Shown: in pieces, positions 2,718 to 29,477 of the stretch
Position numbering within the stretch: position 1 is the first letter of the stretch
How the letters are laid out: each line of letters begins with the position of its first letter
From: Clostridiales bacterium
Lineage (GTDB): Bacteria; Bacillota; Clostridia; Lachnospirales; Lachnospiraceae
NCBI GenBank assembly: GCA_029098165.1
Contig: JAQXNU010000043.1
Location: 1 to 37,817 of the forward strand
Direction: 5' to 3'
DNA length: 37,817 nucleotides
Notes under the pieces: generated by a model
Told to the model about the DNA's origin: nothing
Database searches by the model: none
What the model saw: the letters and a program-made list of their open reading frames with translations, nothing else
Translations under genes and position numbers: made by a program

Positions 2718-3377
2718 TCAATCAAGATTCCAATATTTATCTAATGGTTGAGTATCGCTTTCCAGAAATTCTATAATTTCTTTATCGTCAAAATAAAAAT
2801 TTATCACTTTATGATTTTCAAATTCTACTAATGTAGGTACCCCGCCCAATACAAATTTGTCTTTATTCAATTCTTCTTTTTTTATATATGGATGCGTAGA
2901 AACCGCATACACCTTACCTGCTTCCTTTCCCTCATGCAATGCTGCATAATTCTCATTTGCCCAAATAACTTTATAGAATATTGGCGGATATTTTTCTTTT
3001 ATCAAATTTTCATTCATCCCATCATAGAACATAATTTTTCCGGTACTGTCTTTTTCTCCAATTTCAACATCATATTTTTTTTCATGGGAATCCCAATCAT
3101 AATTCCTCGTCCCTTTACATGCCTCTGCATCAATTTCATAGACTTCATTTCCTTGTTTAAAATTTTTTATGTCTTCTTTTATGTTATCGCAATATGGACA
3201 TTCTTTTCTATTGAAGTACACATAAAAGTGCCCCTCCTTATCAAACAGATCCTCTATGGATGTAGAATATGCTATATTTTCTTCTTTCACCTTTGGGAAT
3301 AAAATAATCCCCGCACCTACACACATTATAAAAAACACACTACATACTACACTAATTAAAACATTTTTCTTCTTCAT
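2718..3377 (-). CDS. Membrane-anchored thioredoxin-fold protein (bacteriocin transport accessory-like)
   Basis: N-terminal signal/TM segment, 'FNRKECPYCDNIKEDI' CxxC motif and cis-Pro motif 'GGVPTLVEF'; 26-nt overlap with the upstream peptidase-ABC gene. Confidence 0.8.
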   Translation of the reverse strand: MKKKNVLISVVCSVFFIMCVGAGIILFPKVKEENIAYSTSIEDLFDKEGHFYVYFNRKECPYCDNIKEDIKNFKQGNEVYEIDAEACKGTRNYDWDSHEKKYDVEIGEKDSTGKIMFYDGMNENLIKEKYPPIFYKVIWANENYAALHEGKEAGKVYAVSTHPYIKKEELNKDKFVLGGVPTLVEFENHKVINFYFDDKEIIEFLESDTQPLDKYWNLD

Positions 3378-5559
3378 CTATATATTCCCCCTCACCACAT
3401 AACTGGCGGTACAATTCACATTGTTTTTTTAGTTGCTCGTCTGTTCCACTTGCTACTATACTGCCTTTTTGAAGAACATAAATGCAATTGCTATCTGCTA
3501 TTACATCGATCCTATGTGAAATCAGTATAAGCGTTAGATTCTGAATTCCTTTGATATAGTTCAAAATCTCTCTCTCACTTATAGAATCCATATTGCTCGT
3601 TGCTTCATCTAAAATTAGAACCTGAGGATGGCGTAAGATAGCTCTAGTTAATGATATTTTCTGTCTTTGACCTTTTGAAAGATTTTTTCCACGCTCTTCA
3701 AGTACACTATCATAGCCTCTTTCCATCTTGCTTACAAATTGATCTACTCCCATGTTATGTGAAATTTCAATCATTTCATCATCCGTTATTCCATCATTTC
3801 CCATTTTTAAATTTTCTCTAACACTCGCAGTAAACAAGAAATCTTCTTGTGACACATATACAATAGCTGCTCGGATTTCTTGAACCCCCAAATTTTGAAA
3901 TTCTATATTGTCAACATATACCTCCCCCTTATCCGGAGAATAAAATTTCATAAATAATTTTGCTAAAGTTGTTTTTCCCGATCCTGTTTCTCCAACAATG
4001 GCTATCTTCTCTCCTTTTTTTATTTTAATATTGATCTTATCTAGTACATTTTTTCCAGAACGGAACTGTAAATTAACATCTTTCAGTTCTATTTTTTCAT
4101 TAATTTTAAGTGCCTCTACATTATCCTTTGATTTCTCTATTTTGATGCACAGCACACTTTCTAAACGCTCCATGGCGACATGAGCAGCATGGTATAGTGG
4201 CTGTAAATTTACAATATCTTTAACTGGTGTTAATAGATACCCAATCAAAATATTATAAGTAACCAATTCTCCTATGGATAAGTTATTACGGATAATTTCA
4301 AATGTTCCAAAACACAACACAATAATTTCTCCCACTCCACCTATTAGAACTTTTATAGCTGACTGTAAATTTTCTGTACTTCCTAGTTCTAAAATCGTAT
4401 CTTGCCATTTTTCTATTTTCTTTTTTCCATTATTAAAGATTGTCCCATTATATGTATACGCTTTAACTGTCAAAATTCCTTCAATAGAATCAATCAAATG
4501 TGCAGTCACTCGTGCCTCTCTAGACATTTCTTTCGAATTTAAAACAGTATAATATTTCTTAAACCACACCATAACCCCAATATATGCAAAACACATTATA
4601 GCAACTACGGTAAATATTTTAATATTCAACAGACATAAAATAATGCTTACTGCAATTACAAATAATATATCAATTGGTAGAACCAATATGCTGCTTACCA
4701 AAGCCTCTTGAACTCTAATAACATCCTGAAATCTTGAAATAAATTCACCATTTTTACGTTTTTCAATAGAATCCACTTTTAAGTCGAGCAAATGCTTATA
4801 ATATTTAAGACTAAGCTCTAAATTGAAGGACTTTGAAATATCTAATGAAATTTTCGCTCTCCCCCAATCTACAATCGTTTTAACCAGCAACATTAAAATA
4901 ACCATTAGTGTCATAAATATTAAACTATAGATCAATCTATTTGGAATAATAGTATCTATCAGAGTTCCAAAGTAAAAAGAGGTAATAATAGAAATTCCCA
5001 TTGATATCCCAGAAAGTAACATAATATAGATCGTTCTCTTCCATTCTTTTTTTATCAACCCCAAAAATTTATTCTCATTACCTCGTATACTTTCCTTTTT
5101 TCGATAAAATTCTTCTGTTGTCTTAAAAATAATAATAATACCTGTCCAAAAATAGGGACAATTTTCCCCAAACTCAGAATTAAAAAATTTATTTCTATTC
5201 ACTTCTACGATACCAACAGATGGATCCGCAATTACTATGCTATCCTTTTTTATTTTGTAAATTACAACAAAATGTGCTAAGCCATCTTCTTGATATACGT
5301 GTGCAACGCATGGGAATTCTAATTCATTTTCTCTGAATTCTTCATTTTTTTTATATGCTGATGCCAAAAATCCTATATTTTCTGCAACTCGACAAATATC
5401 CCAGACACTCGTTCCTTCTTTGTTAGTTTCTAAAGCTTCGCTTAGTTCTATCATAGACATTTTCTTTCCATAGTACCATGCTATACTTGCTAAACAGGCC
5501 CCCGCACAATCTGTAGAGTCATATTGTTTTACACATCTGTATTTCATGTCTTTCACCAT
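3352..5559 (-). CDS. C39 peptidase-containing ABC exporter (bacteriocin/double-glycine peptide processing); an alternative start is ATG at 5547
   Basis: N-terminal 'QYDSTDCAGACLASIAWYYG' and 'AHFVVIYKIKKDSIVIADPS' (C39 Cys, His/Asp), central TM domain, Walker A 'GETGSGKTTLAK', signature 'LSKGQRQKISLTRAI', Walker B 'VLILDEATS'. Confidence 0.93.
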   Translation of the reverse strand: MVKDMKYRCVKQYDSTDCAGACLASIAWYYGKKMSMIELSEALETNKEGTSVWDICRVAENIGFLASAYKKNEEFRENELEFPCVAHVYQEDGLAHFVVIYKIKKDSIVIADPSVGIVEVNRNKFFNSEFGENCPYFWTGIIIIFKTTEEFYRKKESIRGNENKFLGLIKKEWKRTIYIMLLSGISMGISIITSFYFGTLIDTIIPNRLIYSLIFMTLMVILMLLVKTIVDWGRAKISLDISKSFNLELSLKYYKHLLDLKVDSIEKRKNGEFISRFQDVIRVQEALVSSILVLPIDILFVIAVSIILCLLNIKIFTVVAIMCFAYIGVMVWFKKYYTVLNSKEMSREARVTAHLIDSIEGILTVKAYTYNGTIFNNGKKKIEKWQDTILELGSTENLQSAIKVLIGGVGEIIVLCFGTFEIIRNNLSIGELVTYNILIGYLLTPVKDIVNLQPLYHAAHVAMERLESVLCIKIEKSKDNVEALKINEKIELKDVNLQFRSGKNVLDKINIKIKKGEKIAIVGETGSGKTTLAKLFMKFYSPDKGEVYVDNIEFQNLGVQEIRAAIVYVSQEDFLFTASVRENLKMGNDGITDDEMIEISHNMGVDQFVSKMERGYDSVLEERGKNLSKGQRQKISLTRAILRHPQVLILDEATSNMDSISEREILNYIKGIQNLTLILISHRIDVIADSNCIYVLQKGSIVASGTDEQLKKQCELYRQLCGEGEYIDEEEKCFN

Positions 5560-5572
5560 CTCCCTAATAAAT

Positions 5573-5599
5573 AAAGGGGCGATACAAGCTCGCCCCTTT
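5573..5599 (-). terminator. Perfect 10-bp inverted repeat hairpin between the precursor gene and the exporter gene (possible attenuator/leaky terminator)
   Basis: AAAGGGGCGA (5573-5582) / TCGCCCCTTT (5590-5599), 7-nt loop; on the minus strand followed by TTTATTTATT. Confidence 0.7.
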
Positions 5600-5630
5600 A
5601 TATGTGCCTTAATCCTTAATCAGCAGATAT

Positions 5631-5831
5631 TTAATATCCACAATCTTCATAACAAAACTGAATGTATTTGCTTGCCTTATTTTTCTGTCCAGAATTCATC
5701 AGGTTTTCAATTGTAGCTACCATGTCATCTGCATTAGCTGGGCAACAGAAAAAATAGCCATAATCAGAATTACATTTACCTCCCGTTACCATTTCCATTT
5801 CTTTTTGTGACATTTTTTGCATTCCATTCAT
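5631..5831 (-). CDS. Double-glycine-leader bacteriocin-like precursor peptide (66 aa)
   Basis: Start refined to ATG at 5831 with AGGAGG just upstream: MNGMQKMSQKEMEMVTGG|KCNSDYGYFFCCPANADDMVATIENLMNSGQKNKASKYIQFCYEDCGY. GG leader, 48-aa core with five Cys, adjacent to a C39 exporter. Confidence 0.82.
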   Translation of the reverse strand: MNGMQKMSQKEMEMVTGGKCNSDYGYFFCCPANADDMVATIENLMNSGQKNKASKYIQFCYEDCGY

Positions 5832-5962
5832 GTTCGCTTCCTCCTTATATATTTGATACTTAATTAGTACTCCATAATATAAATTTTTTCTATATTTTTT
5901 GCGTAGTTTGTGTTTTTTTTTGCCTAGTTGGAATTTGATTAAATACTTTAAAAACATCTATG

Positions 5963-6664
5963 CTACACTGGAATTATATCTAAAACTTGTACACCTACTA
6001 AAATTCCCCTCTCTATCTTTCTCCTATAATTCCGAAGGCTATGGATATGAAACCCAGGAATTCCCCAAGCATAAGAAATTTTGCGAACATAATACTCTTT
6101 TGATTTTGTAAATATTTTTCCTTGCTTCCTATTTAATAACTTCATAATCCGTAACGACTGAGCTGAGATCTTAGGGAACGCACCATTAACTTTTTTGTAC
6201 AAATCCCCTCTTTTAGTTTCTTCCAAAATAATGGTTTTTCCATGCATACAGGACCATTCTATACATGGAATATCTACACTTCTTATCCCTGTTTCCATTG
6301 CAATTCTCAAAAATAAGGAAGTTTCAAAATCTTTTTTGTATAGGAATTGATCTGCTATCATCTTATAATATTCAACAAAATAAATTTCTCTTATCTTTCT
6401 TTGTAGTTCTGCCAAAGAAATACTATCCAGCCATTCCAGTTTTTCTCTATATTTTTCTACAAATATCATTCTCTGCTCAGCTTTAAAAGATTGCCTCAAA
6501 GCACGGATAGCCTCTGGCCAACATTTTCTTTGTCCAGGTAATAATAAACATACCATTTTCTGTAAAAATTTTTCTTCACTATCCGGATGCCACTGTATTA
6601 AGCGATTTAATTCTTCATAGGCTTGATTCACTTTATATTCCATTGTACTGTTTCTCATCTTCAA
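5963..6664 (-). CDS. Tyrosine recombinase/phage integrase-like protein, apparently lacking the C-terminal catalytic Tyr box
   Basis: 'FLRIAMETGIRSVDIPCIEW' (Arg I box) and 'FHIHSLRNYRRK' (HxLR box); no recognisable LGH...Y motif before the stop. Confidence 0.55.
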   Translation of the reverse strand: MKMRNSTMEYKVNQAYEELNRLIQWHPDSEEKFLQKMVCLLLPGQRKCWPEAIRALRQSFKAEQRMIFVEKYREKLEWLDSISLAELQRKIREIYFVEYYKMIADQFLYKKDFETSLFLRIAMETGIRSVDIPCIEWSCMHGKTIILEETKRGDLYKKVNGAFPKISAQSLRIMKLLNRKQGKIFTKSKEYYVRKISYAWGIPGFHIHSLRNYRRKIERGILVGVQVLDIIPV

Positions 6665-6926
6665 CTTCTCCTTCGTATGGCTCTAAAATCTTTGAAGCCC
6701 TCTCCACAAACATCCTGTCTGCCCCTGAAATCTCATATTCTTTCCAAAGTGTCTTATGTATCTGTTCCTCTGTTAAATCCCTACACTTTTCTTGCAGCAT
6801 ACGGACAAATGGATATATCATGGTTGCATGAATATTTTTCCCGGATCGTACCATATCTCCTTCCATTTGATATGCTTCCTGTAAGCATTCCAGTATAATG
6901 CGAACATCCGTAACACTTTCTCTCAT
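6633..6926 (-). CDS. Hypothetical protein in recombinase operon (start refined from 6941 to 6926)
   Basis: ORF co-directional with recombinase genes; GGGGAAG Shine-Dalgarno-like sequence upstream of ATG at 6926. Confidence 0.55.
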   Translation of the reverse strand: MRESVTDVRIILECLQEAYQMEGDMVRSGKNIHATMIYPFVRMLQEKCRDLTEEQIHKTLWKEYEISGADRMFVERASKILEPYEGEVEDEKQYNGI

Positions 6927-6958
6927 TGTGCTTCCCCTCATCAGGCTTATCCTCCTAT

Positions 6959-7180
6959 TTACATACGTACTCTCAGTCCATCTAATCTCGACACATTCAA
7001 TCCAACCAGATACCAGTCGTCTCCCATTTCAATCCTGACCGGAACCCAAACATCTTTCACCTTTACATCGAAGCATTCCCCACAATGTAGCCCTCCATAA
7101 AAAGATTCCAAATCAAAACGTATATCATACCTCCCTGTTTCAGTATCATAAAACAATGTTCCTTCTCTGTGTTCACTCAT
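6959..7180 (-). CDS. DUF5348-like small protein
   Basis: 'GTLFYDTETGRYDIRFDLESFYGGLHCGECFDVKVKDVWVPVRIEMGDDWYLVGL' resembles DUF5348 proteins found beside recombinases in Clostridia; recalled, not searched. Confidence 0.55.
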   Translation of the reverse strand: MSEHREGTLFYDTETGRYDIRFDLESFYGGLHCGECFDVKVKDVWVPVRIEMGDDWYLVGLNVSRLDGLRVRM

Positions 7181-7228
7181 AACATCTGCCTCCTTAAATT
7201 TTTCTTTTACTTAGTAATTACCTCATCC

Positions 7229-7885
7229 CTATACAGATTGAAGAAATTCCGGAAAAATTTCATAAAAGTTTTTCCGATACCGATAATAGGTAGAAGAAGT
7301 TAACCCCAACTCCCGCTGCAGTTGTGTCGGTGTTACCTTCTTTTGTACCACCCTCATAAATTCCTGGTTAAACTTTTCCTGTTCTATAGCCCGTGGTCTT
7401 CCTACTTCATCCCATTCACCCCGAAGCCTTTTTGCCTCCATACCTTCCTTTTGTCGCTTCTCCTTTTTCTCCATCTCTGCCTGTGCCATGGATGCATAGA
7501 GTTCAATCATCATATTATTGATTGTTTCTATCATCATCTTTGCCAGATTATTTTCCATCTGAGACAGATCAAACAACGTGGTAGGAAGTTCCAATACCAT
7601 TACCCGAACCCCTTTTTCTTCTAAAAAACGTAGCTGCTTCAAAATCTCCTGCTTGTTCCTGCCAAGTCTGTCCAGCTCTGTAATAATCAGGGTATCCCCT
7701 ACCCGTAAAACATCTTCCACAAGAACGGTATAACGTGGTCTGTCAAAATTTTTACCGGTTATCTTATCTGTAAAAATACTTTCCAGTTTAATTTTCTGAT
7801 TTTCACAAAACCTCTTTATTTCTATAATACCTCGGTCCAAGTGTTGTTCCTTAGTACTGATTCTGTGATACCCATAATATGCCAT
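7229..7885 (-). CDS. Serine recombinase/resolvase family protein
   Basis: 'YYGYHRISTKEQHLDRGI', 'DTLIITELDRLGRN', 'EKKEKRQKEGMEAKR', C-terminal HTH-like 'TPTQLQRELGLTSSTYYRYRKNF'. Confidence 0.9.
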   Translation of the reverse strand: MAYYGYHRISTKEQHLDRGIIEIKRFCENQKIKLESIFTDKITGKNFDRPRYTVLVEDVLRVGDTLIITELDRLGRNKQEILKQLRFLEEKGVRVMVLELPTTLFDLSQMENNLAKMMIETINNMMIELYASMAQAEMEKKEKRQKEGMEAKRLRGEWDEVGRPRAIEQEKFNQEFMRVVQKKVTPTQLQRELGLTSSTYYRYRKNFYEIFPEFLQSV

Positions 7886-7906
7886 ACGTATCCCCCTTTA
7901 TACATT

Positions 7907-8016
7907 CCCAAAAAGTCTTAAAATATTTTGGCATATCTCAAAACCTTCTTATATACTTTTTGGAAATAAAAAAATAGCCTATTACATCTCCCATCAAAAA
8001 GCATACTTTTTGGGAG
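7907..8016. repeat. Cluster of inverted repeats CCCAAAAAGT / ACTTTTTGG(G) upstream of the serine recombinase (candidate res/crossover site)
   Basis: CCCAAAAAGT at 7907-7916; ACTTTTTGG at 7955-7963; ACTTTTTGGG at 8005-8014; local near-palindrome CTCCCATCAAAAAGCATACTTTTTGGGAG ending at ~8016. Confidence 0.5.
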
Positions 8017-8066
8017 GTGACTTTCACTACTTCTGTACGCAAGATGGCATAAAAAAGCAACAAAAA

Positions 8067-8098
8067 AAGACAGAGGTTTTTGAAAATTCCTCTGTCTT
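8067..8098 (-). terminator. Rho-independent terminator downstream of the minus-strand winged-helix gene
   Basis: AAGACAGAGG...CCTCTGTCTT stem; on the minus strand followed by TTTTTTTG. Confidence 0.75.
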
Positions 8099-8106
8099 CA
8101 GATCAA

Positions 8107-8508
8107 CTATTCTGGAAAGATGTCCATCTTTTTTCCTTCAAACTTATATCCTACACCTCTCACTGTTTTAATATAGCGGCACTGCTTTAGCTCCGGTTCA
8201 ATTTTCTTTCTCATACTGGATACCAGACAGTACACAATATTATCAATGCTTTCCGGCAATTCCTCGTTATAAAGAATCTCAAAAATTTTTTCTTTGGTAA
8301 ATATCACACCTGGTCTCCCTGACAAAAGCATAAACAATTCATACTCTGCTTTCGTTAAGACGATCTCCGTCTGTCCTCTATAAATCTTATGATAATCCGG
8401 ATAAATCCTAAAATCGGAATTTTCTTCATCCTCTCCCAGAATGTTTTTTATATTTTCCGCCACATATTCTTTGTATCCCAATACAGTTGAAATAGTTACT
8501 TTCCCCAA
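8107..8508 (-). CDS. Winged-helix (OmpR/PhoB C-terminal type) transcriptional regulator without a receiver domain
   Basis: 'IVLTKAEYELFMLLSGRPGVIFTKEKIFEILYNEELPESIDNIVYCLVSSMRKKIEPELKQCRYIKTVRGVGYKF' is a Trans_reg_C domain; only ~45 aa precede it. Confidence 0.8.
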   Translation of the reverse strand: MGKVTISTVLGYKEYVAENIKNILGEDEENSDFRIYPDYHKIYRGQTEIVLTKAEYELFMLLSGRPGVIFTKEKIFEILYNEELPESIDNIVYCLVSSMRKKIEPELKQCRYIKTVRGVGYKFEGKKMDIFPE

Positions 8509-8563
8509 GCTACACTTCCCTTCTGTTTTCTCTTATTTAGAAATCTCATCACACAGATTCCTT

Positions 8564-9583
8564 TTAAAAATGATTCTCTATTCTCCATTCATCGATATGC
8601 TGTACAACCTGGGTCAAATTGGTATACCAGATATAATGTCCTCCATTTACAATATATAACTGGTGATTACCAGATTCTAAATCCAATTGATTTCTATGAG
8701 CAGTCTCCCATGCCGGAACATTTTGTACATTCTCTGAAGAAATCATAGTTAATACAGGAAGTGCCGATGGGAATTTTTTATCTTTTATAGAGAGTAATGA
8801 CTGATCCATCCCGTTCACTTCATTTCTAATCGTATCGTTGCTGCTTAAAGAATATGCCTGAATGTATTCCTCCCCATCACTCTCCGTATAAGTGTACCCG
8901 GAAACCTGTGGTAATGCTGCCCCATATTTCTCCGGATCTGTTTTCAGTGCCGTCTGGAATTCTTCCAAAGAAGAAAAGGAATTCTTGATTTTCTGAAATT
9001 CATCAATTCCCTGCAGCATATATTTCTTTTCCATTTCCATAGCCTCTGCCAGTTCTTCATCATATACCGTATTATCAACAGCAATGAAACCTTTTACTTT
9101 TTCCGGATAATTCTGTACAAAGTTAAGTCCATATACTCCAGAAATCGAATGTACCAGCAATACACACTGCTTAATTCCCATGGTGTCCAGTGCAGCATTC
9201 AATTCACTATTGATATTATCTACAGTTCGGTTAGTCGATGCACCATCACTAAGTCCATATCCAAACGGCTCTACAATCACTATGTTAAAACTCTCATCTA
9301 AAGATTGTGCCAGAGGTTTGAAGTAGATATGCGGTGATGGAACTCCCAGTGCCGGCATCATCACCAATGTGTTTTTTCCCTCATCTGCAAATGTTTCGCC
9401 ACTTGCATCCAATTTCCCATACAAAGCAAGATGCATATTATTCCCTTTCACTGTGATATATTTACTCGCATATCCAACTTGTGTTGCTCCCATAGCATAT
9501 ACCATATTAGAATTTCCTACCAGAAATGTAAACAGCATCGCAATCGTCATAATTCTTGAGATTCGCTTTTTGTATCTTCCCAT
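8564..9583 (-). CDS. Secreted alpha/beta hydrolase
   Basis: N-terminal signal-like segment, nucleophile-elbow-like 'LLVHSISGVYGLNFVQNYP', oxyanion region 'MPALGVPSPHIYFKPL', C-terminal 'NGGHYIWYTN'. Confidence 0.78.
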   Translation of the reverse strand: MGRYKKRISRIMTIAMLFTFLVGNSNMVYAMGATQVGYASKYITVKGNNMHLALYGKLDASGETFADEGKNTLVMMPALGVPSPHIYFKPLAQSLDESFNIVIVEPFGYGLSDGASTNRTVDNINSELNAALDTMGIKQCVLLVHSISGVYGLNFVQNYPEKVKGFIAVDNTVYDEELAEAMEMEKKYMLQGIDEFQKIKNSFSSLEEFQTALKTDPEKYGAALPQVSGYTYTESDGEEYIQAYSLSSNDTIRNEVNGMDQSLLSIKDKKFPSALPVLTMISSENVQNVPAWETAHRNQLDLESGNHQLYIVNGGHYIWYTNLTQVVQHIDEWRIENHF

Positions 9584-9601
9584 ACGTTTCCTCCTAATAA
9601 A

Positions 9602-10792
9602 TTATTTCAAATATTTTTTCAGTTCTTCTACCTTATCTAATCTTTCCCATGGAAGGTTGAGATCGTTTCTTCCAAAATGTCCATAGGCTGCCGTCTGTTT
9701 ATAGATCGGACGGCGGAGATCCAACATCTGAATGATTCCTGCTGGTCGCAGATCGAATTCTCTTCTTATCATCTCTACCAGACTCTCATCTGAAATTTTC
9801 CCAGTTCCAAAGGTGTCTACCATAATAGAGGTCGGATGAGCCACCCCAATTGCGTAAGACAACTGAATTTCACATTTTTTTGCCAGACCTGCAGCCACAA
9901 TATTCTTCGCAACATAACGAGCAGCATAAGATGCAGAACGATCTACTTTCGTACAGTCTTTTCCAGAAAAAGCTCCGCCGCCATGCCGTGCCATACCACC
10001 ATAGGTATCTACAATAATCTTGCGTCCTGTTACACCACTATCACCGTGAGGACCGCCTATGACAAAACGCCCTGTTGGATTGATGAAAAATTTTGTATTC
10101 TCATCTACCAGTTCTGTTGGAATAATCGGTTCCAATACATATTTTTTTATATCTTCGTGGATCTGCTCCTGTGTCACATCTGGATCATGCTGTGTTGACA
10201 GAACCACTGCATCCAGCCGATGCGGAATACCTGCTTCGTCATATTCTACAGTAACCTGACTCTTACCGTCCGGTCTTAAATAATTCAACAAACCATCTTT
10301 ACGGACCTGAGTAAGCTGCCGAGTCAATTTGTGTGCCAGTGAAATTGGATATGGCATAAATTCATTCGTTTCGTCACATGCGTAACCAAACATCATACCC
10401 TGATCCCCAGCACCAATTGCATCAAGCTCTTCTTCTGACATTTTGTGTTCTTTTGCTTCCAATGCCTTATTCACGCCCAAAGCAATATCTGCTGACTGCT
10501 CATCAATTGCCGTTAAGACAGCACAGGTATGTGCATCAAATCCATAATCTCCATTGTCATAACCAATTTCTTTAATCGTTTCTCTTACCACCTGCTGCAT
10601 ATCTATATACGCATTGGTCGTGATTTCTCCCATCACTAATACCATACCCGTTGTAATTGCAGTCTCACAGGCCACTCTGCTCATCGGATCCTTCTCCATA
10701 AGAGCATCCAATATGGCGTCTGATATGGCATCACACATTTTGTCCGGATGCCCTTCTGTTACTGATTCTGAGGTAAATAATCTTTTCTCCAT
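9602..10792 (-). CDS. metK: S-adenosylmethionine synthetase
   Basis: '[25 protein letters not shown]', '[12 protein letters not shown]', '[21 protein letters not shown]', '[11 protein letters not shown]'. Confidence 0.97.
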
Positions 10793-10926
10793 AGTAAATT
10801 CTCCTTTGTATCAATATTTCATATTTGTCAATAACATAAAATATCTTGACTACAATTGCTATATTTTTTGTTTACATTGTACTTTTTTCTGTCCGGTTGG
10901 TTTTGCCTTCAAGCCAAATTATTTTG

Positions 10927-11700
10927 CTATTCTTCTACGAAATAACATATCCGTCTGATTAATTCTGGAATATTAACAGGACTGGTTATATAATCGCTTA
11001 CACCTTCATGACGGTATTGATATTCTAAAGATAAATCTTTATTATCAGTGAATATAAAAAACGGCAGTTCTCTGAATATTGGATTCTTCGTATTTTGATA
11101 TATTCCAGCAAGCTTTTTCATAGAATGAAAAAAATCCATGGCAATTCCATCTTGTAAAAATAAGTCACACAGAATCAATTCAATATCTTGACATTCTAGT
11201 AATTTATTCTCTGCTTCCCATATAGTTTCTACCATAATCATATATATCCCTTTTTTTAGAAGCTCTGTTTGTATAATAGAAGTAATTTCCGAATTCTTTT
11301 TTACAAGAAGTATCTTATGAAAGGCAGCTCCCTCCCCCTTGGATTCTTTATAAGCATACTCCAATAATGTTTCCTTCACTAAATCCAATTGTAGTTTGTT
11401 TATGCATATCTTAGCTCCCTTTTCCAACGCTTCTTTCTCATAATACTTTTTGTCATAGCATGTGAAAAAAAGGAATGGAATTTTGTATGCTTTCTCCTGC
11501 AAGTATTCTAGCAATTCCATTCCACTTCCATCTGACAATTTCAAATCCGAACTTATAATAAGTATTTGTTCCTTTTCTATAAGTTCTTTTCCTTGTGATA
11601 CAGAATGTGCAACTAATACATGATATCCTTTTCGCTGCAGAAAGTTTTTTATATGCCAAATATAATTACTATCGTCCTCTATTAACAATATCTTTTTCAT
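10927..11700 (-). CDS. Tandem (double) receiver-domain protein, no output domain; second receiver degenerate
   Basis: REC1 'KKILLIEDD...IISSDLKLSDG...FFTCYD...INK'; REC2 'KILLVKKNSE...LILCDLFLQDG...FFIFTDNK...YITSPVN' lacks the acidic pair and conserved Lys. Confidence 0.78.
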   Translation of the reverse strand: MKKILLIEDDSNYIWHIKNFLQRKGYHVLVAHSVSQGKELIEKEQILIISSDLKLSDGSGMELLEYLQEKAYKIPFLFFTCYDKKYYEKEALEKGAKICINKLQLDLVKETLLEYAYKESKGEGAAFHKILLVKKNSEITSIIQTELLKKGIYMIMVETIWEAENKLLECQDIELILCDLFLQDGIAMDFFHSMKKLAGIYQNTKNPIFRELPFFIFTDNKDLSLEYQYRHEGVSDYITSPVNIPELIRRICYFVEE

Positions 11701-11878
11701 TCCTTATCTCCATTGAATATCACAGCAATGAGTTACCTCTATTTTCATTTGCAACTAGAAACTTCTTATGATTACCATCATAAACCACTTTAAGCAAGTT
11801 CGGTATATCTATTGTATATTTTGATTTTTTCTTTGCCTATTTTAATCCTATATATTTTTAGCATACATCACTCCACAT

Positions 11879-11908
11879 AAAAAAGCAGTGTAAATCCACT
11901 GCTTTTTT
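11879..11908. terminator. Rho-independent terminator
   Basis: AAAAAAGCAGTG-taaatc-CACTGCTTTTTT perfect hairpin flanked by A/T tracts; just downstream of the 11918-12346 minus-strand gene. Confidence 0.8.
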
Positions 11909-11917
11909 CTCCATCAC

Positions 11918-12346
11918 TTAATCTGTAATTTCCACAAATGAGTATCTTTCTTCTTTCTTTTGTACAATTGCAGAACCTGTTTGTTCTTGTATCGTTTTTA
12001 ACAACTCTTCTATACATATTTTGGCTTCATGCACTTCAATATTCGTAGCGTATGCAATTTCTTTAATCGAAAAACTCAACTCTGAATCACTCATCAAAAG
12101 TTGTAAAATATCCCATTGCAGATCAGTAATTACGATTTCTGTTCCATCAAAAATCATCCTTTTCTCTCCAAATTCAATATCCCATTTTCCGAAATGAATT
12201 CTTTCTTCTTCTATTATGTTTTGCATATCTAATCGCATGACTACAAAGGATACTTCCGGCCAACATTTCTTTAACAATTCCTCTGCTTTTTTTCTTTCCT
12301 CACAATTCTTAAAGTATAATAATTCTCCCATTCTCTGCCTCCTCAT
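11918..12346 (-). CDS. Divergent winged-helix regulator-like protein, receiver-less
   Basis: 'GKWDIEFGEKRMIFDGTEIVITDLQWDILQLLMSDSELSFSIKEIAYATNIEVHEAKICIEELLKTIQ' resembles a Trans_reg_C domain; weak similarity by eye. Confidence 0.5.
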   Translation of the reverse strand: MRRQRMGELLYFKNCEERKKAEELLKKCWPEVSFVVMRLDMQNIIEEERIHFGKWDIEFGEKRMIFDGTEIVITDLQWDILQLLMSDSELSFSIKEIAYATNIEVHEAKICIEELLKTIQEQTGSAIVQKKEERYSFVEITD

Positions 12347-12403
12347 ATCATTTATCTTTATACTTTAAGTCTACATCCGAAATATTGCAGAAATCTTATT
12401 AAA

Positions 12404-12760
12404 TTATTCCTTTAGCCTTTTTTCTAAGATACTATCTTCATTGTATTTGTGTAACTGACCGCCCAATAAACGCTTTCCTATAATAATCCAAGTATCTCTA
12501 TTGTACTGATCCATATCCCTATACAACTCCATGATTTCTCTTTTATTGTCCTGCTCTCTCTGCTGTTCCTCTTCATCCTTTCTCAATATATAATCAACTG
12601 GGACTTTAAAGAATTTGGATAATGCAAGCAACATATCACCAGAAATATTCTCGTCTACCTTTTCATACTTACTAATTGTCTGTTGACTGACTCCTATTTC
12701 TTCCCCAAGCCTTGTCTGAGTCAATCCTAACTTTTTTCTTAATTCAGATATTCGATTCAC
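12404..12760 (-). CDS. XRE-family HTH transcriptional regulator
   Basis: 'ISELRKKLGLTQTRLGEEIGVSQQTISKYEKVDENISGDMLLALSKFFKVPVDYIL' HTH_3 domain. Confidence 0.93.
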   Translation of the reverse strand: MNRISELRKKLGLTQTRLGEEIGVSQQTISKYEKVDENISGDMLLALSKFFKVPVDYILRKDEEEQQREQDNKREIMELYRDMDQYNRDTWIIIGKRLLGGQLHKYNEDSILEKRLKE

Positions 12761-12965
12761 AAGCGTACACCTCCCGATACAATCATTTTACACTTAAATA
12801 CGCCTATGTTTTACTTTATTTAAGAGTATTACTACCATGTATCGTGGTATATCGTAGTATTACTATTTCAATTTCTATATATCTATGCCGAAAAAAAGTC
12901 AATCTATACAAACAATATTACAATTTCTTTTCTTTTAAATATACTAGTGCTTATAGGGAGGAGAA

Positions 12966-13643
12966 ATGCTTATGAAAAAACTATTATTGATTGGCACCCC
13001 GTCCGTCTTAGGGAAAAATCTGGAGAATATCTTAAAGCAAAATTATCACACCGATGTTATTTCCATCGTACCAAAGCAAATTAGCAGCATACCATTTAAC
13101 TCCTATAATGCTTTGATCTTGGATTTCACATTGTTACATAAATACAGCCTTACCATAAGTAAGACTGCAAAAAAACACTTCCCCAATATTATTGTTCTGT
13201 TTTTATGCCCTACCAATATTCCAGAACAAATTATTTTGGATTTGTATGAATCCGGTGCTGACGACCATTTATATATTTCTCTTTCATCACCAGCACTTTT
13301 GCTGAAAAAATTGGATATCTTATTTACCAACTATCATCTAACCACAAAGTACGAAGACAGCCACATAACTTTAAATTTTGACTCCTTAACCGCAGTGATT
13401 GACGGGATTGCTACTTCCTTTACTCCATTGGAATTTAAGCTGCTCAAACTACTCTCTCTAAATCCAAACACTGTTTTAACCAGACAACATCTTTTATATT
13501 CACTATGGGACCGAAATGGAAATTACGTAGAAGAAACCTCTCTGAATAGTATGATCTGCCGTATACGGCAAAGAATTGATACCGAAAATCATCATTATAT
13601 TAAGACAATATATGGGATTGGATATATGTGGATCACCTATTAA
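12966..13643 (+). CDS. OmpR-type response regulator with degenerate receiver domain
   Basis: N-terminal receiver-like fold 'KKLLLIGTPSVLG...NALILDFTLLH' lacking acidic pair, Thr and Lys; intact wHTH 'TSFTPLEFKLLKLLSLNPNTVLTRQHLLYSLWDRNGNYVEETSLNSMICRIRQRI...IKTIYGIGYMW'. Confidence 0.8.
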   Translation: MLMKKLLLIGTPSVLGKNLENILKQNYHTDVISIVPKQISSIPFNSYNALILDFTLLHKYSLTISKTAKKHFPNIIVLFLCPTNIPEQIILDLYESGADDHLYISLSSPALLLKKLDILFTNYHLTTKYEDSHITLNFDSLTAVIDGIATSFTPLEFKLLKLLSLNPNTVLTRQHLLYSLWDRNGNYVEETSLNSMICRIRQRIDTENHHYIKTIYGIGYMWITY

Positions 13644-13695
13644 AGAAGCAGCATAATCCATTACAGATAACGCTGCTCCTTCCCTATTACACCAT

Positions 13696-13833
13696 CTATT
13701 CTACACAAGTAATGAAACAATTAATCATAAAACAATCCGTTATACATTTATGTCTTGTTATGCCACAATCATCTGTATATATATTTACTTCTTCTTCCTG
13801 TAATTCAACCTTCTCTAATTTTACATCGTTCAT
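13696..13833 (-). CDS. Small Cys-rich peptide P1 (45 aa), paralogue of P2 and P3
   Basis: Hand translation: MNDVKLEKVELQEEEVNIYTDDCGITRHKCITDCFMINCFITCVE*; GGGAGGA Shine-Dalgarno upstream of ATG; not in supplied ORF track. Confidence 0.8.
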   Translation of the reverse strand: MNDVKLEKVELQEEEVNIYTDDCGITRHKCITDCFMINCFITCVE

Positions 13834-13949
13834 AGAAATCCTCCCTAATCTATTTCGAACTTTTGATTATGCATATATCTAAACGCTGCTACCAATATTG
13901 GTATTTTGTTAATCCGAAAGCGTCTATATGGACTTTCTCCTACTTTATA

Positions 13950-14090
13950 TTACTCCATAGGGGTTATAAAAGCACCTCCACCGATACAATCTGTTACACA
14001 ATCTTTTCTTGTTGTTCCACAATCATCTGTATATACATTCACTTCTTCTATCTCTATTCCATAATTTTTTGCTTTTCTCTCGTTTTCCAT
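13950..14090 (-). CDS. Small Cys-containing peptide P2 (46 aa), paralogue of P1 and P3
   Basis: Hand translation: MENERKAKNYGIEIEEVNVYTDDCGTTRKDCVTDCIGGGAFITPME*; AAGGAAA Shine-Dalgarno-like; not in supplied ORF track. Confidence 0.82.
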   Translation of the reverse strand: MENERKAKNYGIEIEEVNVYTDDCGTTRKDCVTDCIGGGAFITPME

Positions 14091-14128
14091 GTCTTTTTTC
14101 CTTTCTGTATAAATTTATCCAGTTGTTA

Positions 14129-14272
14129 TTAGTATTCAATATTGAGCCAAGCACCTCCGCCCAAGCAATCATTTAAACAATGAAACTGAATCTCTCCACA
14201 ATCATCCGTATAAATGCTTACTTCTGCAATAAGGAGTTCTCTTGCCTCTTGTTCATCTCTTCGCTCCTTCAT
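14129..14272 (-). CDS. Small Cys-containing peptide P3 (47 aa), paralogue of P1 and P2
   Basis: Hand translation: MKERRDEQEARELLIAEVSIYTDDCGEIQFHCLNDCLGGGAWLNIEY*; GGAAGGAGGAAAG Shine-Dalgarno upstream; not in supplied ORF track. Confidence 0.83.
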   Translation of the reverse strand: MKERRDEQEARELLIAEVSIYTDDCGEIQFHCLNDCLGGGAWLNIEY

Positions 14273-14384
14273 CCAACTTTCCTCCTTCCTGTTAATATTT
14301 TTTTGATAACATCAGTATACTATTTTAAAATTTCATTTCCATATTTTATGTGCAGATTGCATTTTTTTCTTTCTGTTTGGATAA

Positions 14385-16748
14385 CTATTCCATTCTTAGC
14401 TGATCAATGATTGATTTTTTCTTCTGCTCTCTTATTTGATAAATAGATAGTATAACCTGTATTAACAGAAGTACCAATACGTATATACTCATATAAAAAA
14501 ACGGAAATGAATATTCTACCACTTTCCCATAACATCCTATACTCATTTGACGACAAATCAACATTGCAATAGGAGTTCCAATTAGCAGTGTTACGCAAAT
14601 GCTTAAGATAGAATAGCACATACCTTCACAGATAATAACTTTATAAAGTTGTTTTTCTGTCAACCCTATAGACCGTAAAACACTATATTCACGTCTTCTA
14701 AATAATTGATTTGACAGTGTTGTGTTAATCAAGTTTATCACACCAAAAAGGAAAATCAGGATTGAAATTATTTGCAACATGAAATATATTGTATTATCTT
14801 TCTCATATCCATTCACTCTTTCGCTAAAGCTTTCGATTGCAATATCTTCGTTTTGTGAAATCATATTTCGAAGATTTTCATCAACATTGCTCTCTTCCTT
14901 TGGATCAATGTTGATTACCCATGTAAAATCAAAATTATTTATTCCAGGCAATAATTCTTTAAAAGCATCTTCCGTCATACACATCATCGCAGCATTAAAT
15001 CCTAAATGCCCACTTCCTTTTGTAGATGCAACTTTAGTTGATTGGAAAATTCCTGATACTGTTACTGGTATTTTTTCTTTTCCTAACGAAATCTCAAACT
15101 GCATTCCTACTTTTACTTCTTCCCCAAAATCTTCATAACCAGTCTTTACTAATATTTCATGGGAATTTTCCGGCATTCGCCCTGCAATTAATGAATCTTC
15201 GATTTCTTTCTTATTTTGCGCGGTAATCATATCACACATTCCTCTTCCTCCATATCCCTTATATTCAAAGGTAAAGGTTGCTGATTTTCTTAATGTTTGT
15301 ATCTCTTTGATACCTGGAATGCTACCGATTTCTTCTTTCAGCTTATCATTAAGAGGATTCCCGGAATATAATAGTTCTGTAGGTTCTTTATCTGACTTTA
15401 TATATATTTTATAATCAGCATCACCAAAATAATGTTGTGCCATCTTTAGCGGCGACTGTAAAAGTAAAGCTGAAGATACCGTTAGCAGAATGATTCCTCC
15501 GAGGCTTAATGATATAACAATGCTCCATACTTTTTTTGGTTCTCTCTTAAAATTCATTATTCCCAAAGATATTGGCGTAAGCTTTCTATTTTTTTCTTGT
15601 GCCGATATTTTTATATTACTAATTGCTGTCATCCTCACAGATTCCATCGGAGATGCCTTCATTGCTATTTTAATTGGTTTATTTATAGATATACTGACAA
15701 TAATGCTGCAGATAGCTGCGGTTATCATTGCACATACAATATAATTCCTAACATTAATTCCTTTTGCTAGTATTATCGCTGAACAAAGTATTGCTAATGA
15801 AATACCTGTCAGTATTCCTCTAACACCTAAATATCTTCCTTCTTTTTTTACAATCTTTTTTATCTGCTTTTGTGTCGTTCCTATCGTTCTAAGTTGTCCG
15901 TAATTTTGTATTTTGTTAATTATGGAAATTTGGAAAATGCTTTTTATAACCGTATAGCTTCCTATCAAAACAAGTCCAATTAATATTCCTAAGATACCTA
16001 ATTGATCTGCAGAAATCACTTGATTAACGTACCGAAAATATTGATTGTTAAATGCTACAGGTAGATTATTTTTTTCACCAATTTGGCTACATAATTTCTT
16101 TATTTCTTCAGCATTTTTTTCCTTCACATGTATATAAACCATATTGGAATCTTCATCATAGTTTTCATAATTTTTCAGTTGTTCCCAAGATATTAAAAAT
16201 GGATATGTTTCTCCACTAGTCTTCATATCAAGAATCCCTGAAATCGTATATTCGCCTGATAGTTGTTTCGTGTTTAAAGTAATCTTATCTCCTACCTTTT
16301 TATCTTTCTCATACTTTTCCAACCATTTTTTACATACAGCAATCTGATTTTCTTCCTCTGGAACTTCTCCACTGGATAAACTCATCTGATTTCTCATCAT
16401 ATAGAACATTGGCTGATCCATGTAAAAAAAAGCTGCTGTATATTTTTTGTCAGACGGTATATCCCCAACAATATAATATTGTCCTACTCTTTCAAATCCC
16501 GTTTCTTCTTTTAGCTTTAACAGCTTTTTTTCTGAAACATTCATGTATACTGCTTCGTATGTATCCTGAATCTGTTTTTTCTGCACTTCCATCAGTGAAG
16601 TCGCAATAAGTCCTGAAAAACATATCAAAAATGATGCTAGAGCTATAGAAATCATTAACATAAAATTTCTTCGTTTTTCAGACTGAAGATTCCTCTGTAC
16701 AATATTTTTTATTACTTTTTTATTCCCTGATTTTCTCATTTTCACCAA
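14385..16748 (-). CDS. FtsX-like ABC transporter permease (787 aa)
   Basis: Two FtsX-type TM blocks ('YGQLRTIGTTQKQIKKIVKKEG', 'EYSVLRSIGLTEKQLYKVIICEG'); overlaps upstream ATPase gene. Confidence 0.92.
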   Translation of the reverse strand: MVKMRKSGNKKVIKNIVQRNLQSEKRRNFMLMISIALASFLICFSGLIATSLMEVQKKQIQDTYEAVYMNVSEKKLLKLKEETGFERVGQYYIVGDIPSDKKYTAAFFYMDQPMFYMMRNQMSLSSGEVPEEENQIAVCKKWLEKYEKDKKVGDKITLNTKQLSGEYTISGILDMKTSGETYPFLISWEQLKNYENYDEDSNMVYIHVKEKNAEEIKKLCSQIGEKNNLPVAFNNQYFRYVNQVISADQLGILGILIGLVLIGSYTVIKSIFQISIINKIQNYGQLRTIGTTQKQIKKIVKKEGRYLGVRGILTGISLAILCSAIILAKGINVRNYIVCAMITAAICSIIVSISINKPIKIAMKASPMESVRMTAISNIKISAQEKNRKLTPISLGIMNFKREPKKVWSIVISLSLGGIILLTVSSALLLQSPLKMAQHYFGDADYKIYIKSDKEPTELLYSGNPLNDKLKEEIGSIPGIKEIQTLRKSATFTFEYKGYGGRGMCDMITAQNKKEIEDSLIAGRMPENSHEILVKTGYEDFGEEVKVGMQFEISLGKEKIPVTVSGIFQSTKVASTKGSGHLGFNAAMMCMTEDAFKELLPGINNFDFTWVINIDPKEESNVDENLRNMISQNEDIAIESFSERVNGYEKDNTIYFMLQIISILIFLFGVINLINTTLSNQLFRRREYSVLRSIGLTEKQLYKVIICEGMCYSILSICVTLLIGTPIAMLICRQMSIGCYGKVVEYSFPFFYMSIYVLVLLLIQVILSIYQIREQKKKSIIDQLRME

Positions 16749-17418
16749 CTCCAGTTTTCAAAAATTTTCCGTCTTCAATCCGCACTATTCGTTCTGCTAG
16801 ATCTGCAATATGCTCATTATGAGTAATCATCACAACACTTTGCTCAAATTTTCTACTCGTACTTTGAATCAATTCCAGTACATCCTGGCTCGTCTTGCTG
16901 TCAAGATTTCCTGTAGGTTCATCCGCAAGTATAATTGCCGGCTTCGTAATCAAGGCTCTTGCAATGGCAACACGCTGCTGCTGTCCGCCAGATAACATAT
17001 TCGGCATACTTTTCAGTTTCTCCTGTAAACCGAGCATATTAATAATTTCATTCAAAAATGTCTGATCAACTTCCCGCCCATCTAATTCAATCGGCAAAAC
17101 TATATTCTCATAAACATTTAACATGGGGAGTAAGTTATAGTTTTGAAAAATAAATCCGATATTTCTTCTTCGAAAGATTGTGAGCTGCTCATCATTTAAG
17201 TCTGACAATTTTTTCCCTTGGATCTTAATTTCCCCAGATGTCGGTATATCCAATCCTCCCAACATATTCAATAAAGTAGATTTACCACTTCCGGATGTAC
17301 CAACAATAGCTACAAATTCACCCTTTTCAACACTAAAATCTACTCCATCCAATGCCTTTGTTATATTAGGCTCCTTTCCATAATATTTTTTTATATTTCT
17401 TGCTTCCAATACTTTCAT
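16720..17418 (-). CDS. ABC transporter ATP-binding protein (MacB/LolD-like); start refined to ATG at 17418
   Basis: '[14 protein letters not shown]', Walker A '[12 protein letters not shown]', signature '[15 protein letters not shown]', Walker B '[12 protein letters not shown]'. Confidence 0.95.
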
Positions 17419-17540
17419 AATTATATTCCGCCTTTCTGCGAAAGCCACCAATAGGGTTATGAAACTTGTTGGAGAACTTCCGCTATCTTATTTTAATTCT
17501 TTCTGATATATTCTTTTTATAAGACTGACACACTACAGAA

Positions 17541-17700
17541 CACGCGGAGGTGAGTGGCGGGGCTGTATAGCGGCGACCTCGCATAGTTATTTGTTGTCGG
17601 TCATCCGTTAAGGCATCAATGATTGGCGCATAACGTAGCCCGTAAACTTATCTCTTCCAAAGTCGACTCGATTTTGCCGGATGACCAGTCACTATCAGTT
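17541..17700 (+). ncRNA. Putative IS110-type bridge RNA / structured 5' non-coding region
   Basis: Two stems seen: GC(G)GAGGT 17544-17551 with ACCTCGC 17576-17582, and GGTCATCCG 17599-17607 with CGGATGACC 17678-17686, in the non-coding region upstream of the IS110 transposase. Exact ends unknown. Confidence 0.5.
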
Positions 17701-17731
17701 TTATAACTATTACTATCAGGAGGTTTGTTTA

Positions 17732-18988
17732 TTGTTCAAAATTATCAAGAAAAACTGCTGTGGTCTTGATGTCCACAAGACTTGGATCTTTGCCTGTATC
17801 GGTATTACTGATTCCAATGACCGTACAGAGTATAAGCAGGCTCGTTTCTCTTCCTTTTCCAAAGGATTGCTGGAACTGTGCGATTGGCTTGCCAAGTACA
17901 ACTGTACCGATGTCTGCATGGAATCTACCGGAAAGTACTGGATCCCTGTCTATAACATTCTGGAGAAAAATAACCTATGGGTTACTCTTTCTCACCCAAA
18001 ATACACAAAACCTATGAAGGGTAATAAGACTGACCGTAAAGATGCCAAATGGATCTGCGATCTCTACATGTGTGGTATGGTCAAGCCTTCCTTTATTCCA
18101 CCTGCTGATATCCGTCATCTAAGAGACTTGGTTCGTTACCGATTCAAACTTACCTGTATGATTACCGGAGAAAAGAATCGTGCACAAAACTGCTTAACTG
18201 TATCTAATCTCAAACTTGATGATGTATTCAGTGATGTATTTGGCAAGTCCTCTCGTTCCATTATAGAACAGATACTTGCTCACCCTGGGGAAACCTTTGA
18301 TGTTACACCTTTTGTTGACAGTCGTTGCAAAACTCCGATTGAAGAAATCCAAGCCGCTGTTGATGGTGCTATCTCGCCTGAACAGGCTGTGAAACTTCGC
18401 CAATGCCTTAATCACATCGACGAATTAGAAAAGCACATAGAAACAGTGGAACAGGAAATTCTTCGCCTCTCTAATCAGTACTCGTCTGCACTTGAACTAA
18501 TACGTACTGTTCCTGGCTTCGGTAATAATCCGATGACTGCTATCCAAGTTCTCTCAGAAATCGGCGGTGATATGTCTGTCTTCCCCACAGCCAAACACCT
18601 CGTATCCTGGGCTGGATGTTGTCCTCGTAACGACCAAAGCAACAAAAAAATCAAATCGACTCGAATTTCCCGTGCCGGTTCTTATATTAAACCATTATTG
18701 GTACAAGTTGCAAACTCTTTAATCTTATCAAAGAAATATCCTGAGTTTACGACTCGTTATCGTCGTATAAAAGCACGTCGTGGTCACAAGAAAGCTACCA
18801 TCGCTCTGTGTCGTATGATCCTGACCGCTATCTGGCACATGCTTTCAGAGTTAAAGCCTTATACACCAGATGGATTTCTTGAATCGCGTCCTGTGAATGA
18901 ATCAAAAACTTTGACTACATCACAGGCACTTAATCTTCTTAAGCAACGAGGTTACATCATCAAAGATGATCCTGTAGCAGTTTCCTGA
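17732..18988 (+). mobile_element. IS110-family transposase gene (likely TTG start at 17732; ORF open from 17681)
   Basis: 'CCGLDVHKTWIFACIG', 'CMESTGKYWIPVYNIL', 'KGNKTDRKDAKWICDL', C-terminal Transposase_20-like 'IRTVPGFGNNPMTAIQVLSEIGGDMSVFPTAKHLVSWAGCCPRNDQS...KKIKSTRISRAGSYIKPLLVQ'; AGGAGG at 17718-17723. Confidence 0.93.
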
Positions 18989-19363
18989 TTAGGTGTTGTG
19001 TCTATATTTATTTTTGAAACCACCCAACGGATGGTTTGTTTGCTATGCTCTTTATTTTTTCTCTATCCGCTACCTCTTTGTTTCAAACTTATCCTCCCCT
19101 TACTGTTATATGATATTATTACTTCATGTCCCTTTAATTTTAAATAATCCTGTAAAGAGAAACACTATAAGACCGTGCCGTAGTTATGAGCACTATGTAT
19201 AGTGATTATTCCGATTTTCATGATTGAACCTCCGTTTTGTTACCACTAATTATACCTTATATAACAGGTCGGATTCAAGTACACTTACATAAACATGTCA
19301 GTATCTAAAACAAATTTCTTCCCATTATGATTGTAAGCCTATCTTCTTACTGATAAGAATTCA

Positions 19364-24446: not shown

Positions 24447-25619
24447 TTACGCTTTTTTCTCTTTCATTACAAGCTGCTCGACTAATTTATCTATCTGTTC
24501 TCTATTCTCGTCACTCATAGAAGACTGAATAGTAATCACCGGTTCAAGATAAGTGATATCTTTGCACTTCTCCATCATGCTCTTCATGACTTTTGCAGCC
24601 ACAGGTGCCCAAGATCCATTCTCCATCAGTGCGATTGTGCGATTTTGGTAATTACGTTCTGTCAAATGCGTAATAAATGTCTTCATAAATGGAAAGATAT
24701 CGGTGTTGTATGTAACCGATGCTAATACTAACTTTCCATATTCAAACGCTTTCGCAACTGCTGTTGTGATATCGGTTCTTGCAAGATCGAACACAATCAC
24801 ATTTTCGCATCCTTTTTCCTTAAGCTTCTTAGCAAGTAAATCCACTGCTTTCTTTGTATTTCCGTAGATGGAAGAATACGCAATCATAACTCCATCCGTT
24901 TCCACTGCATAGGATGACCATGTATTATATTTATCTAAATAATAATTCAGATTCTCCGTTAAAATCGGTCCATGTAACGGACAGATCTTTTCAATTGGAA
25001 CTCCTGCGACCTTTTTAAATAGCATCTGTACAGGCTGTCCATATTTACCAACAATACCGATATAGTATCGTCTCGCTTCCTCATCCCAAGGCTGTTCTAC
25101 ATCTAACGCACCGAAAGTACCAAAAGCATCTGCAGAGAAAAAGATTTTTTCTGTTGTTTCATAACACATCATAACTTCTGGCCAGTGAACCATTGGTGCA
25201 AAGATAAACTTAAGTGTATGTTTTCCTAGACTTAAGGTATCTTGATCTTTTACTTCCAGTTTTCTTCCGTCGATTTTTAAATCACGAAAGAAATTTTCCA
25301 TCATCGTAAATGTTTTTGCATTTCCTACAAGTACCGCTTCCGGATACGTTTCTGCAAACAACTGAATATTGGCACAATGATCTGGTTCCATATGATGAAC
25401 AATCAGATAATCTGGTTTCTTGTCCTTTAAGATACTTTTAACATTACTTAACCATTCTTCACCAAAATCTTTATCTACGGTATCCATAACCGCTATTTTG
25501 TCATCCTTAATGACATAGGAATTATAAGACATACCATTGGGAACGACATACTGCCCTTCAAAGAGATCAACTTTATGATCATTTACACCTACATAAAAAA
25601 TACTATCTGATATAAACAT
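24447..25619 (-). CDS. Flavodiiron protein (FprA-type)
   Basis: Metallo-beta-lactamase-like 'VHHMEPDHCANIQ' and flavodoxin domain 'GVMIAYSSIYGNTKKAVDLLAKKL'. Confidence 0.94.
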   Translation of the reverse strand: MFISDSIFYVGVNDHKVDLFEGQYVVPNGMSYNSYVIKDDKIAVMDTVDKDFGEEWLSNVKSILKDKKPDYLIVHHMEPDHCANIQLFAETYPEAVLVGNAKTFTMMENFFRDLKIDGRKLEVKDQDTLSLGKHTLKFIFAPMVHWPEVMMCYETTEKIFFSADAFGTFGALDVEQPWDEEARRYYIGIVGKYGQPVQMLFKKVAGVPIEKICPLHGPILTENLNYYLDKYNTWSSYAVETDGVMIAYSSIYGNTKKAVDLLAKKLKEKGCENVIVFDLARTDITTAVAKAFEYGKLVLASVTYNTDIFPFMKTFITHLTERNYQNRTIALMENGSWAPVAAKVMKSMMEKCKDITYLEPVITIQSSMSDENREQIDKLVEQLVMKEKKA

Positions 25620-25847
25620 GTAAATTTCCTCGCTTTCTTTTGTTATGAACCTTATACATCAATCGTCCATATTTTAAGTATTCACATAAACAAATACATT
25701 ACTCATATTTTAATAATAAAAGTTAGAAAAAATTCTGGAATACAACTTTGTAAGGTAACATAATATTATCATTTGTATTTACTCGTTGAAAATTTCTTTT
25801 CTATTATATCATTTTGTTCAGATGCCTTTCAAGACTTATGAGAGTTG

Positions 25848-26640: not shown

Positions 26641-26649
26641 TATTGGCAC

Positions 26650-27120: not shown

Positions 27121-27200
27121 GGCTCCTATTTTACCAAAATAAATGGTATCTATCCCGACTATTGAAATAAGAATATGTCGGATTTGCTTATGCGAATGGC

Positions 27201-29406: not shown

Positions 29407-29477
29407 ATAAATAGCATTAATTTTGTCAAATACATTTCCGATACATTTTTGTCGGATCAGATGAAGGAGTAACCAAT

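Follow-up and report, generated by a model that had tools for sequence, protein, structure and literature searches.

Tandem cysteine-containing peptides on a Lachnospiraceae island, probable orphaned precursors of an undescribed radical SAM RiPP family

In the Qhp operon, the radical SAM enzyme QhpD makes Cys-to-Asp/Glu thioethers, the single-turnover subtilisin QhpE cuts off a leader of 28 residues, and QhpF is the exporter; the substrate is the gamma subunit of quinohemoprotein amine dehydrogenase (PMC7876137). The ranthipeptide maturase PapB crosslinks Cys-Xn-Asp with n = 0 to 6 and refuses the reversed Asp-then-Cys order (PMC9413430), and in the thuricin CD system two radical SAM enzymes act as one complex (PMC12093266). 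Here we compare with these systems three short peptides, P1 to P3, encoded in the window (the whole stretch of Clostridiales bacterium DNA that was analyzed, 37,817 nucleotides). Because the same peptides follow one cassette in relatives, P1 to P3 are very probably precursors of undescribed radical SAM RiPPs, and the copy in this genome is probably an orphaned one that lacks its biosynthetic half. The precursor family is recognized by no public model used here, and in gut bacteria it is linked with five proteins, a compact set suited to tests in a heterologous host. With three radical SAM enzymes beside a Qhp-type protease and exporter, the system would let one ask how such enzymes share work on one short peptide.

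The initial annotation had reported three tandem minus-strand mini-genes, each with a Shine-Dalgarno sequence, and the ORFs are indeed present (Table 1), preceded by purine-rich ribosome-binding sites (GGAGG for P3, AAGGA for P2, and GGGAGG for P1). The spacing C-x6-C-x3-C is common to P1, P2, and P3 as described, and the two extra Cys residues of P1 are kept in its Blautia hansenii orthologue as well. Six-frame translation of the window gave three matches to the motif Y-x3-C-x6-C-x2-D-C, and 100 order-1 Markov windows gave none. A conserved center with variable ends had also been proposed; the center stands, but the tail is not simply variable, [WFL]-[IL]-[TSN] recurring in most of the family. 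By eye, the peptides have neither a Sec signal nor a double-glycine leader, and a promoter/terminator scan gave a result no better than shuffles.

Table 1. Coordinates and gene content of features in the window and in related loci (positions without a locus prefix are those of the window)
Feature	Position	Strand	Remarks
P1, candidate precursor, five-Cys variant, CITDCFMINCFITCVE	13696..13833	-	45 aa; B. hansenii orthologue at L006:4306-4443
P2, candidate precursor, CVTDCIGGGAFITPME	13950..14090	-	46 aa; B. hansenii orthologue at L006:4049-4189
P3, candidate precursor, CLNDCLGGGAWLNIEY	14129..14272	-	47 aa; B. hansenii orthologue at L006:3866-4009
FtsX-type ABC permease	14385..16748	-	787 aa; Pfam FtsX 7.5e-19; directly upstream of P3
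ABC ATPase, permease partner	16720..17418	-	232 aa from ATG at 17418; Pfam ABC_tran 1.6e-38; LolD/MacB-like
OmpR-type winged-helix protein, candidate regulator	12966..13643	+	Pfam Trans_reg_C only; convergent with the peptides; position kept in L006
OmpR-type winged-helix regulator	8107-8508
OmpR-type winged-helix regulator	11918-12346		weak match
Island, best read as horizontally acquired	5984..17435		blastn, 94-97% identical to B. hansenii MSK.15.26; includes a second metK
metK of the island	9602-10792		99% identical to B. hansenii island copy (G400:C16:29349-30536)
IS110-family element	17414..19097	+	outer limits approximate; transposase 17681-18988, IS110 transposase 2.6e-25
Bacteriocin-like unit	2718-5957		outside the island
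C39-peptidase ABC exporter	3352-5559
GG-leader peptide, beginning MNGMQKMSQKEMEMVTGG	5631-5957		outside the island
Clostridium MAG, one contig	L007		Zn-dependent phospholipase C-like, rSAM1, ABC exporter, subtilisin-like protease, rSAM2, rSAM3, two peptides, ABC ATPase
Complete Lachnospiraceae genome G348	L016		rSAM1, exporter, protease, rSAM2, rSAM3, and two peptides contiguous; convergent ATPase/permease pair and phospholipase-like gene beyond
Second Blautia, G405	L039		cassette and one peptide (41 aa) on a single 3.07-Mb contig; no ATPase/permease pair directly after the peptide
B. hansenii contig C20	L027		cassette reaches contig end; rSAM3 stops 51 bp short of it
B. hansenii contig C16	L006		from contig end: three peptides, ATPase, permease, three more peptides
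Fragmentary genome G022	L013		rSAM3, then one peptide
Divergent B. hansenii system	L040:13154-15807		G400:C23; two PapB-like radical SAM enzymes, then two peptides
Zn-dependent phospholipase C-family genes	L007:199-1041, L016:72-971, L027:6412-7260, L039:4824-5675
rSAM3 relative, apparently frameshift-split	L060:3169-4304		G117:C186
Apparently further RiPP system	L039:12364-15621		directly after the G405 peptide

The statement that no modifying enzyme lies nearby is correct for the main window ORFs scanned, but the peptides are not isolated: a same-strand ABC ATPase/FtsX-type permease pair (14385-17418) lies directly upstream. The permease gene is also found beside the peptides in B. hansenii (L006) and in the Clostridium MAG locus L008, and the ATPase follows the peptides in L007 of the same MAG. 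This pair is probably a self-immunity or export partner, a role in immunity being suggested by analogy with bacteriocin clusters. The candidate regulator is one of three stand-alone OmpR-type winged-helix proteins on the island, among which no receiver domain was recognizable. We considered the C39-peptidase exporter as a direct partner and rejected it, since P1 to P3 lack a double-glycine leader and the exporter has a GG-leader peptide of its own, with which, and with a thioredoxin-like protein, it forms a bacteriocin-like unit. A lanthipeptide reading found no support: a scan of the main window ORFs revealed no LanM or LanB/LanC domain, and the elgicin model scored P1 at 15.6 bits against a cutoff of 40.

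The family was sought in one genome per species across 85,462 species and then by profile searches of sampled genomes. The species scan returned close relatives in B. hansenii MSK.15.26 and the Clostridium MAG, and the profile searches brought in G348, a complete Lachnospiraceae genome, and G022, a fragmentary one, as well as a second Blautia (G405) and a divergent pair in B. hansenii. The initial annotation had named a lack of homologues with conserved ORF boundaries as grounds for doubt; such homologues exist. P1 and P2 are 80% and 89% identical to their B. hansenii orthologues, and P3 is unchanged from the Tyr to the C terminus. Across the 19 family peptides aligned, from six genomes including that of the window, three residues never vary, namely the second Cys, the Asp three positions after it, and the final Cys; the Tyr and one Glu are nearly invariant, and the first Cys is displaced by one residue in the divergent pair. 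Most members carry three Cys residues and P1 five, and up to six different precursors occur at one locus (L006). Searches of NCBIfam, Pfam, and PHROGs placed none of the 19 in a curated family. The family is rare in the genomes sampled: it was found in 3 of 397 Lachnospiraceae genomes (the window's own counted), in the window's own only among 392 genomes from the class, and in 2 of 20 from the genus of B. hansenii.

Four other genomes, those of B. hansenii, G405, the Clostridium MAG, and G348, share a cassette in the order rSAM1, ABC exporter, subtilisin-like protease, rSAM2, rSAM3, peptide(s). The proposal of an undescribed RiPP thereby gains support, since in relatives the peptides immediately follow genes for a peptide-type ABC exporter, a subtilisin-like protease, and three radical SAM enzymes; the neighborhood comparison that the initial annotation had suggested, for an ABC pair or a modifying enzyme, finds radical SAM genes adjoining the peptides in relatives and the ABC pair adjoining them in the window. 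On single contigs the peptide lies directly downstream of rSAM3 in L007, L016 (G348), L013 (G022), and L039 (G405). In B. hansenii, the C16 peptides begin about 140 bp from the contig end in an order compatible with the C20 cassette, and from the contiguous relatives we infer that the two adjoin, the junction falling at the contig ends. The divergent B. hansenii system, which adjoins conjugation-type genes and whose contig stops after the peptides, shows the same pairing of enzymes and peptides. Viral contigs and phages searched with rSAM3 gave no relatives; nor did plasmids searched with a peptide, and radical SAM matches on plasmids were only 28 to 30% identical. The open literature, to which our search was confined, yielded no account of the peptide or cassette system. 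The family and its cassette architecture are new, within the known kind of radical SAM RiPPs.

Several genes were seen alongside. Four genomes have, along with the cassette, a Zn-dependent phospholipase C-family protein whose N-terminal segment resembles a signal (the Pfam scan covered the L027 copy only). An rSAM3 relative in L060 has no recognizable family peptide nearby. The G405 peptide is followed directly by a 437-aa radical SAM/SPASM-like protein together with a small ORF and a second ABC exporter.

The enzymes point to known maturases but score below the curated cutoffs of those families. rSAM1 and rSAM2 match the PapB ranthipeptide maturase best (E values of 6e-57 and 5e-59), with PapB scores of 183 to 216 bits against a curated cutoff of 340, and are thus related to, not members of, the PapB/SCIFF equivalogs; among solved structures, CteB (5wgg) comes nearest to rSAM1. 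The best match of rSAM3 in L007 is StsB (2e-16; 59.8 bits against a cutoff of 625), and rSAM3 of B. hansenii reached no NCBIfam family at 1e-20. All three enzymes keep CxxxCxxC, and the rSAM1 and rSAM3 members scanned have a SPASM domain. The protease matches QhpE best (2e-27; 95.9 bits, below the curated cutoff of 165), and its Asp, His, and Ser triad is kept in four orthologues.

Precursors stand beside maturases, protease, and exporter, as in radical SAM RiPP systems, in L007, L016, L039, and L027 taken with L006; maturases are absent from the window. Like the ranthipeptides freyrasin and thermocellin/SCIFF, the system combines best-matching PapB/CteB maturases with a Cys-containing precursor bearing C-Xn-D, but the cassette has three radical SAM enzymes rather than one, as well as a dedicated subtilisin and exporter, and its precursors match no SCIFF or other NCBIfam precursor model. 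SCIFF peptides have six Cys residues in about 45 and a dedicated TIGR03974 maturase, whereas ours have three or five Cys. With the Qhp operon the cassette shares the one-operon trio of radical SAM enzyme, QhpE-like protease, and ABC exporter; it differs in its three radical SAM enzymes, its Lachnospiraceae hosts, and its substrates, which are short peptides and not an enzyme subunit such as QhpC, and by eye no dehydrogenase subunit was recognized among the cassette ORFs (L007, L016, L027, and L039). The cassette would appear to work like the Qhp system while being no member of it.

By analogy with these systems, the products are most likely ranthipeptide-like, with Cys-Asp thioethers formed under a QhpD/E/F-like maturation logic. 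We infer bond type, leader cleavage, immunity, and biological activity as follows. The precursor would have a leader of about 18 to 20 residues, with cleavage expected near the conserved E-E-V-N-x-Y, and a core whose start is close to the conserved Tyr. Complete systems would crosslink it in the cytoplasm by means of three radical SAM/SPASM enzymes, the PapB/CteB-like pair and the third one. The most probable bond would be a thioether joining the second Cys to the invariant Asp of C-x2-D, which is residue 34 in P2. The subtilisin-like protease would then take off the leader, the type 1 ABC exporter would secrete the product, and the ATPase/FtsX-permease pair would protect the producer. The second Cys-Asp bond is the best single prediction because the invariant C-x2-D fits the PapB rule; since PapB refuses the reversed order, the first and third Cys have no evident partners.

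The crosslinks could instead join Cys sulfur to an alpha carbon, as in sactipeptides, or be of both types, rSAM3 then being the main maturase and the PapB-like pair its partners, a reading that we consider possible though less probable. It draws on the constant position of rSAM3 directly next to the peptide, on the weak StsB match in L007, and on thuricin CD, which requires two radical SAM enzymes as a complex (PMC12093266). As that complex shows, the number of bonds in our system need not equal the number of its enzymes. The sactibiotics thuricin CD and ruminococcin C likewise have small Cys-containing precursors, more than one radical SAM enzyme, and Gram-positive hosts. However, two of the three cassette enzymes are closer to PapB/SCIFF/QhpD maturases, makers of beta/gamma-carbon thioethers, rSAM3 of B. 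hansenii lacks an NCBIfam match at 1e-20, the precursors show no sequence match to sactibiotics, and the protease/exporter set is another one. We retain Cys-Asp thioethers as the most likely outcome.

Upstream of the cassette, B. hansenii and G405 carry LytTR regulators, an AgrC-like GHKL kinase, and a further radical SAM enzyme, which in B. hansenii is PapB-like. As the kinase and regulators lie directly beside the cassette there, the mature peptides might be quorum-sensing signals sensed by the GHKL kinase/LytTR pair and imported or exported by the ABC pair. We think this unlikely: the DNA examined around the G348 and Clostridium MAG cassettes showed no LytTR pair, and up to six precursors per locus together with an ABC pair resemble a multicomponent antimicrobial with immunity. 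Quorum control is in any case common for bacteriocin clusters.

The peptides and ABC pair of the window lie on a segment best read, on sequence identity, as a transferred island, because it is 94 to 97% identical to B. hansenii while the region at 24447-31450 reaches 67% at best and the host genera differ by genus samples. An insertion at about 11023-11870 interrupts the identity. The homology stops at 17424-17435, depending on gap costs, about 17 bp before the ATPase start, where the IS110 element begins; the element's region matches an IS110 region of a Roseburia plasmid at 82%. The IS110 element marks the spot where the biosynthetic half is missing. The whole 7.3-kb cassette used as a DNA query found nothing in the window's assembly, whereas the same query matched G405 at 93%, and protein searches of the assembly with rSAM2 and rSAM3 returned only the housekeeping SCIFF maturase (TIGR03974, 796 bits, on contig C268) and unrelated enzymes. 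That maturase, weighed as a stand-in for the missing enzymes, was rejected, as nothing supported it. With precursors and ABC pair alone remaining and IS110 at the break, we predict that no mature product arises from this copy, and its genome is probably a nonproducer with orphaned precursors and no working pathway. The assembly is a draft of 289 contigs with an estimated contamination of 4.54%; the pathway could lie in a gap or missing contig, or the assembly could be chimeric at IS110.

Alternatively, the window peptides could be unmodified, disulfide-containing bacteriocins or signals that need no maturase. In favor of this, neither the window nor our searches of the assembly yielded a maturase, and the peptides are still intact ORFs under apparent constraint. 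Pooled against their B. hansenii orthologues, P1 to P3 differ by about 24 nonsynonymous and 13 synonymous changes (dN 0.076, dS 0.178), giving a dN/dS of about 0.43, not near the value of 1 that the initial annotation had associated with noncoding sequence (p = 0.03 for fewer nonsynonymous changes than neutral); for neighboring genes the ratio lies between nearly 0 and 0.32. In the interval that runs from the Tyr to the final DC, P2 and P3 show no change, and P1 has four changes, none at Tyr or Cys; P2 by itself has one synonymous and six nonsynonymous changes, numbers too small to interpret. At 94 to 97% identity, however, the loss may be too recent for decay, so that most of the constraint could predate it. 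Moreover, five other family genomes have a radical SAM gene directly upstream or on a presumed adjoining contig, and the peptides lack the Sec or double-glycine signal noted above. We regard unmodified peptides as very improbable and favor orphaned radical SAM RiPP precursors.

The window's copy illustrates the spread of such clusters on islands and their breakage into precursor-plus-immunity remnants. A bolder proposal, which we consider doubtful, is that of a new class of RiPPs whose three-Cys core would receive a different crosslink from each of the three radical SAM enzymes. Its maturation and export would run through thioether radical SAM enzyme, cytoplasmic subtilisin, and ABC exporter, a logic shared with the Qhp cofactor pathway, and its mobile islands could carry their own SAM synthetase and, on losing the biosynthetic half, leave immune nonproducers behind. 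The metK of the island may supply SAM for the island's radical SAM enzymes; the window's genome has two metK copies and B. hansenii has extra copies, with a native-like copy in each.
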